Of a stretch of DNA of 64,000 nt, positions 11,382 to 17,040 are shown piece after piece. The notes below the pieces were generated by a model. It saw only the letters and a program-made list of their open reading frames with translations. It was not told where the DNA came from and ran no database searches. Position numbers and translations under genes: made by a program. Positions within the stretch are counted from its first letter, which is position 1. Each line of letters begins with the position of its first letter. This stretch comes from an uncultured bacterium (GTDB taxonomy: Bacteria; Calescibacteriota; Calescibacteriia; Calescibacteriales; Calescibacteriaceae), in assembly GCA_938036315.1 (NCBI GenBank), contig CALHPK010000006.1, positions 124,001 through 188,000 on the forward strand, read 5' to 3'.

Positions 11382-12116
11382 TTAGTGTCCCAAAAACTCT
11401 ACTATTGTGAATATAAGTATGGCGCCAGCCCCGAATAATGCAAAATCTTTTATTGAACTGAGAAGTGGTATAAAATCGTGTATGGCTACATAGGTGAGAA
11501 TTCCAGCAGAAACTGGCGCAAAGATATGTCCAACATCAGAAGAAAAAAGTACAAGTGTAGCCCCTAGTATATTGAAAGCAGATGTCAAAAATATGAAAGC
11601 TATAGATCTTTTCTTGTTATGATCTGAGTATATGAAACTGAGAATCAATCCATCTGTTACTTTGTGAGCTAGGATAGGTAGCAGAGATACAAAAAAATTC
11701 TTTGAAAACAATAGAAAACCACCCATGAAAAATCCATCTGAAATGTAGTGTAATCCTAGTCCAGTTACAACTGTAACCCTAAAAGGATCTTCACAAGACC
11801 AGCAAGAAAGTTCATTTTCTCTGTATGTAAGGTGGTGACTTTTAAGGAAGCTCAATTTATCAAGTATGATAGATATAACTACTCCAAGGAACATAAGAGT
11901 ATGGGAGAAGTTATCAGAATTATGAAGCGATTCAGGAATAATCCGTAAAAAAACTGCTGATAGAATTACTCCAGAAGCAAAGCTGAAGATTTCTTTCTTC
12001 CTTAAGATAGCAAGATTTAAAAAGAGTAAAGCTGATAGTACTGGTATAGAAAACAGTACTGCTGAGATTATAATCCATTTTAAAATTATCTCAAGCTGAC
12101 CAATCATAAGATACAT
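11382..12116 (-). CDS. ZIP family metal transporter
   Basis: This 244-residue membrane protein has about eight hydrophobic helices. It carries the two ZIP metal-site motifs: LGLHYISDGFFMGG in helix 4 and LAHKVTDGLILS in helix 5. SAVFLRIIPESLH near the N-terminus matches the ZIP helix 2 signature. ZIP proteins move Zn2+, Fe2+ or Mn2+ into the cytoplasm. The usual His-rich loop after helix 3 is short (KSHHLTYRENE) and followed by CWSCED. The usual Glu of HxxPEG is Asp in both helices (ISDG, VTDG), a conservative change. The gene is flanked by 19-bp direct repeats and lies next to the 302-bp inverted-end element. The start may also be the ATG at 12104. Confidence 0.88.
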   Translation of the reverse strand: MYLMIGQLEIILKWIIISAVLFSIPVLSALLFLNLAILRKKEIFSFASGVILSAVFLRIIPESLHNSDNFSHTLMFLGVVISIILDKLSFLKSHHLTYRENELSCWSCEDPFRVTVVTGLGLHYISDGFFMGGFLLFSKNFFVSLLPILAHKVTDGLILSFIYSDHNKKRSIAFIFLTSAFNILGATLVLFSSDVGHIFAPVSAGILTYVAIHDFIPLLSSIKDFALFGAGAILIFTIVEFLGH

Positions 12117-12118
12117 AG

Positions 12119-12137
12119 TAGATACGTAGTGTAAACT
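12119..12137. repeat. Right copy of 19-bp direct repeat flanking ZIP gene
   Basis: This is the partner of 11341-11359 (17 of 19 identical). It overlaps a smaller 11-bp tandem duplication at 12109-12130 (AGATACATAGT / AGATACGTAGT), whose first unit covers the ZIP start codon. Confidence 0.6.
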
Positions 12138-12236
12138 TAGTAGATCTACAATAATAATTCTAATCTATAATTAAGATTTCAATGATTCTTTCTTTTTCAT
12201 TATTATGGCGTTTATTTTATTTTAATCTTATAAGTT

Positions 12237-12538
12237 GGGTGAGAAATTGACCATTATAGATTAAGATCTTTTGTAGGGAAGGTGCGTAGTCTATAGGTAT
12301 TCCGTAGGCTATATCTTTGAAACACCTGAATTGTAGCCATTGCGGGCTAAAGTGTAACCTATCTTAGCCTTGAATCGTTCAACATGCTCTCTTCTAAAAA
12401 ATTGTAAGTTCGGCGGAGGGGAATTCGCTGGTTTTACCTCTTTGAAGGGTGCATTTGAGGGGTACATCCTTTAGATTACCAACTTTGTTTGGCTTGCTGA
12501 TAGGGAGAGTTTTGAAGAGAAGAATTAATTTCTCACCC
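12237..12538. other. 302-bp non-coding element with 12-bp perfect inverted ends (structured RNA or MITE)
   Basis: The element begins GGGTGAGAAATT (12237-12248) and ends with the exact reverse complement AATTTCTCACCC (12527-12538). Inside are further hairpins: about 12289-12310 (AGTCTAT paired with a GTAGGCT-type arm), GGCTAA/TTAGCC (12345-12350 / 12364-12369) and GAAGGGTG/CATCCTTT (about 12444-12471). It lies in a 606-base spacer with no gene. The layout fits either an RNA closed by a terminal P1 helix or a miniature inverted-repeat element. No target duplication is visible (TAAGTT left, GGTGTA right). A short minus-strand frame leaving through the left end could be a relic. RNase P, tmRNA, SRP and cobalamin motifs were looked for and not found. 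The remaining flanks (12138-12236, 12539-12680) are AT-rich with nothing recognised. Confidence 0.55.
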
Positions 12539-12722
12539 GGTGTATTTAAAAAAATTTATATTATTTATTTTACTATACGTAATATCTTTTTCTTTTATAA
12601 TTTTGTATGATTTCATCGGGGGTAAGGTAGGCTGGGTTCTACTCCCGGCTGTGGAAAAATGAAAAATAGATAGGTCATTAATTTTTAATTTCCCAGAGGA
12701 AGTTGAGAATATTATAAAGAGC

Positions 12723-14118: not shown

Positions 14119-17040
14119 ATGGGGCAATTACTTATAAAAAGATTGTCAATAGTGGTGACGGCGGTAATTTTTCTGAGCTATGTTCTAATACAATCTGCGT
14201 GTACAAGAACAGGTAGTAAAAAAGTATCGGGTGAGGATCAGCTATCCGGAGGAATTCAAAAAATAAAGATAGAAGGGAAAGTTCAGGCGGAATCTGATTT
14301 CTTCTCGGCTTCGCAGGAGGGTATAGTAACTACTAGATTAGTAACAGGAAGAATCATAACTGCGAGGGCTCCTCGGCTTTCAGCTAAGGAAGAGGAAGTA
14401 AAGCCGGTTAGGGAAGCGATTGTTGTGTATGAGGAGGGAGGAGTATCTGCAACTTCTGATGATAATGGGAATTTTTCTCTACAGGTAACTATTTCAAGGA
14501 AGTGTCCATGTGAGGTTACAATTTCAGCCGGAGCAGTCCGGAAGGATGGAAAAAGCTATCGTGTAAGACAGAATATCACAATATCAGACGAGGACATCAA
14601 GGCTGGTAGGAAGAATGTCGGAGCTATTACTGTTCTATCATCAGGAGGAATAATAGGTAAAGTAAGACTTGTGGGGGCTGATTATCATCAAGGTGTGTAT
14701 GCCTATATCCCCGGAACTGGAATGATTAGTATAACAGACGAGGAGGGTAATTTCGTCATAGGAGATATACCACCAGGGCAATATAAACTCGCAATGGAAA
14801 AAATAGGATACTCCTCTAAAATGACAGAGAATGTAGTGGTGGAAGAGGGGAAGATAACTTATGTTGGAGATTTTGAACTGCAAAAGGTGGAGTCTTCAGA
14901 TGATTTTCTCAAGGGAGTGGTTAGGGAGAAGGTATCCGGAAGGGTTGTAATTGGCGCAATAATAGTCAGTTCTTCTGGCAAAGTTGCTATGTCAGATGTG
15001 CAAGGGATATTTCAAATAGGGAGCACTAAAGAAAAGCTTACCGTCTACAAAGAGGGATACAAACTAAAAGAGGTTTTCCCATCCGAGCTAACCACCAGGC
15101 AAGTTGAGATCATTCTTGAGATTGAAGATCTGAGAACTGGAGTAATAAAGGGTAAAGTGTACAATTGGAGTACATCAAAGCCTATCCCTGGGGCAACAGT
15201 GATCTCCCTACCTAAAGGAGATGCGACAGTGACTTTAAATGATGGAAGTTTTTCTCTTCAAGGAGTTGAGCCAGGAAGTTATAATCTTATATTCATCAAG
15301 AGCGATTTCCAAGTAGGTGTAGAACCGATCAGGATGCCAAATGGAGGAGTAATAGATATAGGAATAATAGGGCTTGTCCCGGATTGTCAGATGGCAAAGT
15401 TTTATGCGGATAAAGATGGAGATGGTTTTGGAGATCCTAATGAATATACCGAAGATTGTTATCCACCTTATGGGTATGTTGGGAATAAGAATGATTGTGA
15501 TGATACAAGGGTTGAAATTCATCCCGGGGCAGTTGAAATTTGTAATGGGAAAGATGATAACTGTAATGGTCTTGTTGATGAGGGTGTGCAGGTAAAGTTC
15601 TACAGAGATCAAGATAATGATGGGTATGGCACATCGTTGACCTTGCCAGGAAGTGTAACTCAGGCTTGTGAGCAACCCCCAGGTTATGTAGGGAACAATC
15701 TTGATTGCGATGATTCTGATCCTAATATAAACCCTGGTGTATTGGAAGAATGTAATGGGAAAGACGACAACTGCAACGGACATATAGACGAAGGTGTACA
15801 GGTAAGATTCTACAGAGATCAAGATAATGATGGGTATGGAGATCCTGCTTCCAAGATGCAGGCGTGTACAGTACCTGTGGGCTATGTTGAAAACAATCTT
15901 GATTGCGATGATTCTGATCCTAATATAAACCCTGGCGTAGTTGAGGTAGTTGATGGACGAGATGAAAATTGCGATGGTATCCAAGATAATCTAACTTTCA
16001 GGATAGGGAATATAGCTGAAGTTTCGCCAGTACATTATATTGATTTGGCGATGGATCAAAGTGAGAGGCTTTATGTGTCAATGTCTTATACTGCATATGG
16101 GAGCTCAAGATGGTTAGATTACTTTCGAAAAGAAGTTTTGGGAGAGTGGGAGGGAAAGGGTGCTCGATACCTCGGTGCAGGTAGCCAACTTTTGTATAGT
16201 TCCTCTATAGCAGTGAAACCAGATGGAAGTGAAGTTTACTTTTCTTACCATAGTTTTTCAGATGGCTCTTGTGGGGGTGGTTTGTGTATAAATAAATATA
16301 CATCGGGTGGTTGGTACGGTGACGGTAAAGGAGTAATTGTTGCGCCAAGCACGAGAAATAATGCGATAGCTTATGCTAATGGTTTTACTCATATAGTTTA
16401 TGCAGATGAAACGGTGGTACACATATATGCAGACTCATCGCATCCAACTTTCTCAGAGCGAGCTTCAATTGTCTTTTCAGGTCAGGTTACAGATGTAGAG
16501 GTTTCTGCAAGTCCTGATGGAGCAACTGTGCATATGGTTGCTATTGTGATTTTAGCAGATGGGGAAAAATATCCATTTTATGCAAGGAATGCAATTCCAG
16601 GTGTTTTTTCGTCGTGGGTTACATCTCGAATAACTTCTTATACTTATGATGTTGAAAGTATTTCCGTTGCTGTTTCAGCTAATGGAGTAACTCATATATG
16701 TTTTACTGGAAAAAATACTCCACATCTTTTTTACACGCAATCTACCGGGGGTAGCTTTTCAATTCCCAACAGTATTGACGGAGAGGGACCAATGTCATCC
16801 TGTTCAATTACACTTGATAATGTTGGTTCCCCTCACGTAGCCTATTACAGTAAATCATTCAAAGATTTGAGATATGCTGTTTTGTATGAGGGAAGTTGGA
16901 AGAAATACAGAGTAACATATGTAGAATATGTTCCGTTGAATCACGGAGTCGGGATAGTGATAGATAGTAAAAAGATTCCGTATATAGCTTTTATTGGTTA
17001 TAATCTACCAAGATACGCAACGCTAACAAGGAAGAATTAG
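14119..17040 (+). CDS. Large lipoprotein: regulatory-type beta domains, MopE metal-binding repeats, C-terminal propeller-like region
   Basis: This 973-residue protein has a signal peptide ending in the lipobox IQSAC (Cys near residue 28). Four carboxypeptidase-regulatory-like beta-sandwich units span about 90-420; the fourth contains GVIKGKVYNWSTSKPIPGA and GSFSLQGVEPGSYNL. Three MopE-type repeats follow (about 429-618), each with DxDxDGxG, NDCDD or LDCDD, HPGAxEICNGKDDNC or NPGVxE, and NGxxDEG. These acidic/Cys units are annotated in other genomes as putative metal-binding motifs. The last 350 residues contain repeated HIVYAD, HICFTGK and HVAYYS strands, as in a beta-propeller. The second and third MopE units share near-identical DNA (15598 and 15808 starts), so they duplicated recently. 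AGGAGA precedes the ATG. It is probably exposed on the outer surface; the ligand is unknown. Confidence 0.8.
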   Translation: MGQLLIKRLSIVVTAVIFLSYVLIQSACTRTGSKKVSGEDQLSGGIQKIKIEGKVQAESDFFSASQEGIVTTRLVTGRIITARAPRLSAKEEEVKPVREAIVVYEEGGVSATSDDNGNFSLQVTISRKCPCEVTISAGAVRKDGKSYRVRQNITISDEDIKAGRKNVGAITVLSSGGIIGKVRLVGADYHQGVYAYIPGTGMISITDEEGNFVIGDIPPGQYKLAMEKIGYSSKMTENVVVEEGKITYVGDFELQKVESSDDFLKGVVREKVSGRVVIGAIIVSSSGKVAMSDVQGIFQIGSTKEKLTVYKEGYKLKEVFPSELTTRQVEIILEIEDLRTGVIKGKVYNWSTSKPIPGATVISLPKGDATVTLNDGSFSLQGVEPGSYNLIFIKSDFQVGVEPIRMPNGGVIDIGIIGLVPDCQMAKFYADKDGDGFGDPNEYTEDCYPPYGYVGNKNDCDDTRVEIHPGAVEICNGKDDNCNGLVDEGVQVKFYRDQDNDGYGTSLTLPGSVTQACEQPPGYVGNNLDCDDSDPNINPGVLEECNGKDDNCNGHIDEGVQVRFYRDQDNDGYGDPASKMQACTVPVGYVENNLDCDDSDPNINPGVVEVVDGRDENCDGIQDNLTFRIGNIAEVSPVHYIDLAMDQSERLYVSMSYTAYGSSRWLDYFRKEVLGEWEGKGARYLGAGSQLLYSSSIAVKPDGSEVYFSYHSFSDGSCGGGLCINKYTSGGWYGDGKGVIVAPSTRNNAIAYANGFTHIVYADETVVHIYADSSHPTFSERASIVFSGQVTDVEVSASPDGATVHMVAIVILADGEKYPFYARNAIPGVFSSWVTSRITSYTYDVESISVAVSANGVTHICFTGKNTPHLFYTQSTGGSFSIPNSIDGEGPMSSCSITLDNVGSPHVAYYSKSFKDLRYAVLYEGSWKKYRVTYVEYVPLNHGVGIVIDSKKIPYIAFIGYNLPRYATLTRKN

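Follow-up and report, generated by a model that had tools for sequence, protein, structure and literature searches.

The intergenic DNA that separates the genes for a ZIP transporter and an Rsm22-family methyltransferase contains a 302-bp GC-rich island closed by a perfect inverted repeat, and it was asked whether this element is a structured RNA gene, the remnant of a mobile sequence or ordinary spacer in which a repeat arose by chance. In the window, which is the whole 64,000-nucleotide stretch of DNA analysed here, the spacer spans 12117–12722 and carries no ORFs (none of more than 53 amino acids overlaps it). It is bordered by the ZIP gene (11382–12116, − strand) and by the Rsm22 gene, which was called from about 12723 on the + strand. 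The protein-like frame of Rsm22 appears to start slightly upstream of 12723, so the spacer, which had been described earlier as 606 bases without genes, was found to be free of coding sequence as claimed and slightly shorter than that. The perfect 12-bp inverted ends reported by the sequence-only reading of this DNA were verified as exact reverse complements (Table 1). The GC content is 0.407 within the element as against 0.208 in the left flank and 0.139 in the right flank, and when base composition was followed across the spacer, the arms were found to sit at the edges of the GC island. The element is a real, sharply bounded unit, for which this agreement between the arm positions and the island edges is the best evidence obtained. 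A scan for promoters upstream of the element on the + strand found no good site, and no terminator was present directly after it.

Table 1. Coordinates in the window of the candidate element, its terminal arms and its predicted stem-loops
Feature	Position	Paired segments	Strand	Basis or predicted probability
Candidate element, GC island with perfect 12-bp inverted repeats at its ends	12237..12538		+	sequence, fold, composition
Left arm GGGTGAGAAATT, 5' side of terminal helix	12237..12248		+	p = 0.95 for the helix with its flanks
Right arm AATTTCTCACCC, 3' side of terminal helix	12527..12538		+	exact reverse complement of left arm
Predicted stem-loop 1	12255..12295	12255-12263 / 12287-12295	+	p = 0.92
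Predicted stem-loop 2	12303..12344	12303-12313 / 12332-12344	+	p = 0.80-0.96
Predicted stem-loop 3	12345..12369	12345-12350 / 12364-12369	+	p = 0.80
Predicted long stem-loop 4	12374..12463	tip 12404-12417 / 12424-12437	+	p = 0.75-0.94, one 3-bp segment 0.33

The predicted fold of the element was compared with those of shuffled sequences and of other parts of the genome. The minimum free energy was −95.1 kcal/mol for the + strand and −64.8 for the − strand, and the whole element on the + strand gave z scores of −3.3 to −3.6, with none of 100 shuffles as good in the run that gave −3.3. When the arms were removed, the interior scored −1.1 on the + strand (35 of 300 shuffles did as well) and +0.2 on the − strand. 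The fold excess stems mainly from the terminal arms. The case illustrates that where an element is picked for a perfect terminal repeat, the repeat itself can account for its fold score. At least three internal stem-loops had been claimed from the sequence, and these were indeed predicted with fair probability on the + strand; the interior overall is no better than shuffles, so the internal hairpins alone do not exceed chance. The terminal helix, which has a probability of 0.95 in the flanking context, is predicted to persist at 70°C (probability 0.90). The z score of the element was the lowest of 258 segments scored across the 64 kb, a set to which the element had been deliberately added, and it ranked eleventh of 204 strands when the GC-richest segments of sampled spacers were compared; the RNase P RNA and tmRNA of the home genome (G000, to which the window belongs) gave −4.4 and −5.1 in the same comparison. 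Furthermore, 34% of the predicted pairs in the element are G-C and 19% are G-U, whereas G-C pairs make up 62–76% in the organism's own RNase P, tmRNA, 5S and tRNA-Trp, and its GC content (0.41) lies close to the mean of the window (0.375) and far under that of the organism's RNAs (0.56–0.59). By these models the element folds less convincingly than the known RNAs of the organism.

No match to the spacer was found in Rfam 15 at the gathering score or at E ≤ 10, in agreement with the earlier statement that it holds no recognisable RNA, and both RNase P and tmRNA were located elsewhere in the home genome. A tRNA, whole or split, spanning the element was also considered and rejected, as ARAGORN gave no call at default settings and scattered low-threshold calls only when relaxed. 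In the relative G003, three similar repeats (L121:18000–18293, L128:11317–11565 and L085:10648–11002, all on the − strand), which by eye look like IS605/TnpB-type right-end RNAs, bear no resemblance to the element. The same genome has a cobalamin riboswitch at L138:12002–12216 (+ strand).

Searches of the whole home genome, which is 85% complete, found the element in one copy. No further exact end sequence was found in the 42% of this genome that was read directly, and a direct cmsearch gave no homologue in 0.73 Mb of other G000 contigs or in 1.87 Mb of G003. In four family members (82–86% complete), whose proteins from the neighbouring genes are 45–52% identical to those encoded here, neither blastn nor a single-sequence covariance model detected a homologue, and the model found no match in a set of 386 genomes. 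As a control, the RNase P and tmRNA of the home genome matched their counterparts by blastn in all four relatives, with best E values of 5e-8 to 4e-29. The Rsm22 and ZIP genes are present in the four relatives with other neighbours, and no such element was seen at the corresponding Rsm22 or ZIP neighbourhoods. Phage and plasmid collections gave no match to the element, and two further sequence patterns found none in viral sequences. Short blastn matches elsewhere were discarded, those in family members falling within long ORFs, and eight viral contigs carrying the first 16 bases of the element did not match the covariance model. From these comparisons the element appears to be specific to its home genome or genus. 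The sequence-only reading had counted a lack of homologues against its proposals, and none was found in the four relatives or the 386 genomes; because a model built on one sequence has little power to detect diverged homologues, and because the bins are not complete, this absence is not a proof. The named sequences among the relatives are a contig of Bacterium HR19 (HRbin19) and an uncultured MAG contig. We infer that the lineage is thermophilic from the high G-C content of its stable RNAs and from the provenance that we presume for the HRbin genomes; the papers found do not say so of HRbin19.

For this sequence unit, whose boundaries, single copy and lack of a known-family match are established, the best explanation is an orphan structured RNA, restricted to the lineage and read from the + strand, whose ends would pair in a terminal helix and which would act independently of the downstream gene. 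We give it a probability of about 0.4, its transcription and strand, its fold and any function being inferred. A non-coding RNA of ~300 nt would be transcribed from the single + strand copy, a terminal helix of 12–13 bp would close the molecule and enclose several stem-loops in a multibranched fold, and the RNA would act in trans and not as leader of the Rsm22 gene. In favour of an RNA are the position of the arms at the edges of the GC island and their rarity in shuffles, the folding of the whole + strand element, better than shuffles and much better than the − strand, and the lack of a coding signal; against it are the ordinary interior, the ranking among spacer strands, the lack of a homologue in relatives where blastn does find RNase P and tmRNA, and the lack of good promoter and terminator signals. 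The proposal made on first inspection, of a new structured RNA closed by a terminal helix, is possible but unproven, since no homologue was found in which covariation could be sought, the fold excess is driven mainly by the arms and the predicted pairs are poor in G-C. Long GC-rich intergenic regions have yielded published candidates for orphan structured ncRNAs (PMC6429828, PMC8632094, PMC8723152). The element is like them in its long and relatively GC-rich spacer, its predicted fold and its lack of a known family, and both were picked up by a similar base-composition cue; unlike the element, which is one sequence with no comparative support, those candidates have several homologues and a consensus structure. 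If transcribed, it would lengthen by one the list of orphan RNAs confined to a genus in uncultured lineages, and little would be changed by the element alone.

Nearly as likely as the orphan RNA is that this is non-functional, drifting spacer DNA, possibly what is left of a decayed gene, with a 12-bp inverted repeat that arose by chance. The element is not conserved across the family, its interior folds ordinarily and its base composition is close to that of the window, all of which speaks for this reading. Perfect inverted repeats of 12 bp or longer occurred in 2.6–3% of dinucleotide shuffles of the same spacer, and two were observed in 118 directly read spacers of the home genome where 0.9 were expected. 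Repeats that contain as much G and C as this one are however rarer: those with five or more G/C in each arm, a cut set post hoc when the arms were already known, occurred in 0.13% of the shuffles, and 0.017 were expected in the same 118 spacers where one was observed. In 221 spacers of the home genome and one related genome, the repeat of the element was the sole one of at least 12 bp with more than three G/C per arm. The match of the arms to the edges of the GC island also argues against chance. A decayed gene found no support, as no reading frame looks protein-like: stops were present in every frame, the best frame scored 0.123 as against a coding mean of 0.228 and a 95th percentile of 0.154 in other spacers, Pfam gave no convincing match on the spacer frames, and the best tblastn E value was about 0.4 among the frames listed.

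We consider it unlikely that the element is a degraded or non-autonomous insertion, MITE-like or left from an insertion sequence, with the 12-bp ends as its terminal inverted repeats. Like MITEs and insertion-sequence remnants it is a short non-coding unit with inverted ends, its boundaries are sharp, its composition differs from the flanks, and it is missing from the corresponding neighbourhoods in the relatives. Such elements differ from it in that it is single-copy and no related transposase ends were seen, and no target-site duplication was found, the flanks (...ATAAGTT and GGTGTAT...) sharing no direct repeat at the junctions; the silence of the phage and plasmid collections is also against an insertion. 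The MITE alternative, which had been offered beside the RNA, is thus not supported, given the single copy and the absence of a target duplication.

A cis-acting leader of the Rsm22-family gene, riboswitch-like or exerting translational control, seems improbable. The element lies on the same strand, about 130–185 bases upstream of the Rsm22 frame, but no riboswitch in Rfam matches it and in four of four relatives the gene occurs without such an upstream element; for the latter reason an RNA acting in trans is preferred to a leader. More improbable still is the ambitious form of the RNA reading, a new class of large trans-acting multibranched RNA that a terminal helix would close and that would be found in a single genus of a poorly sampled, apparently SRP-less lineage. 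In rough length and in the pairing of its 5' and 3' ends in a terminal helix, the element is comparable to RNase P RNA, tmRNA and the large SRP RNA, but RNase P and tmRNA lie elsewhere in the genome with much more G-C-rich pairs and it has no Rfam match of its own. That it is a very divergent housekeeping RNA (SRP RNA or 6S RNA) is hardly credible: although searches of the five family genomes turned up no SRP RNA elsewhere, such an RNA would be expected in the relatives, where no homologue was detected, a motif-plus-pairing scan of the window found no helix 8 with a GNRA tetraloop and AGCA, and the Ffh M domain, which would bind an SRP RNA, is also missing.

This absence was followed in the five family genomes. 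SRP RNA was not found in any of the five with RF00169 or RF01854, searches that are not exhaustive because both models were also silent in Bacillus subtilis. The exact helix-8 consensus was not seen in any of the five genomes, and the motif-plus-pairing scan of G003 was negative, as it was for the window. PF02978, the Ffh M domain, was found in none of the five as against 14 of 14 control genomes. No SRP-GTPase motifs were present in the ORFs of G003, which was read almost completely, and tblastn with E. coli Ffh gave only one weak match there (E 0.08). SecA is present in the two genomes examined, G003 (~55% identity) and the home genome (54% identity), in L144 and L210. These results together suggest that the SRP pathway, Ffh as well as SRP RNA, has been lost in the whole family, with the reservation that all five genomes are incomplete bins (82–86% complete). 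Because SRP is regarded in published work as conserved throughout the living world (PMC7844537), its apparent family-wide absence could matter more than the element itself.

Other features were noted in the spacer, the window and the home genome. A second small GC-rich island of 42 nt (12614–12655, GC 0.62) lies just upstream of the Rsm22 gene and holds a T-arm-like hairpin, CTGGG TTCTACT CCCGG. The relative G001 has a complete tRNA-Gly gene at the corresponding position, so the island may be a tRNA remnant; no matching tRNA turned up in the sequence read. Between 12669 and 12723, the residues FPEEVENIIKS ahead of the called Rsm22 start match FPDEVAKII of the relatives, and no ATG, GTG or TTG occurs between the preceding stop and these residues; the cause may be an unusual start codon or an error in the assembly. 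Two other spacers of the home genome, neither of them matched in Rfam, are L182:1–763, which is GC-rich without a tRNA, and L203:7669–7870, which folds far better than shuffles (z of −5.9 and −3.4 on its two strands). The window also encodes, at 14119–17040, a large protein with three copies of a MopE-type metal-binding motif and with carboxypeptidase-regulatory-like domains.
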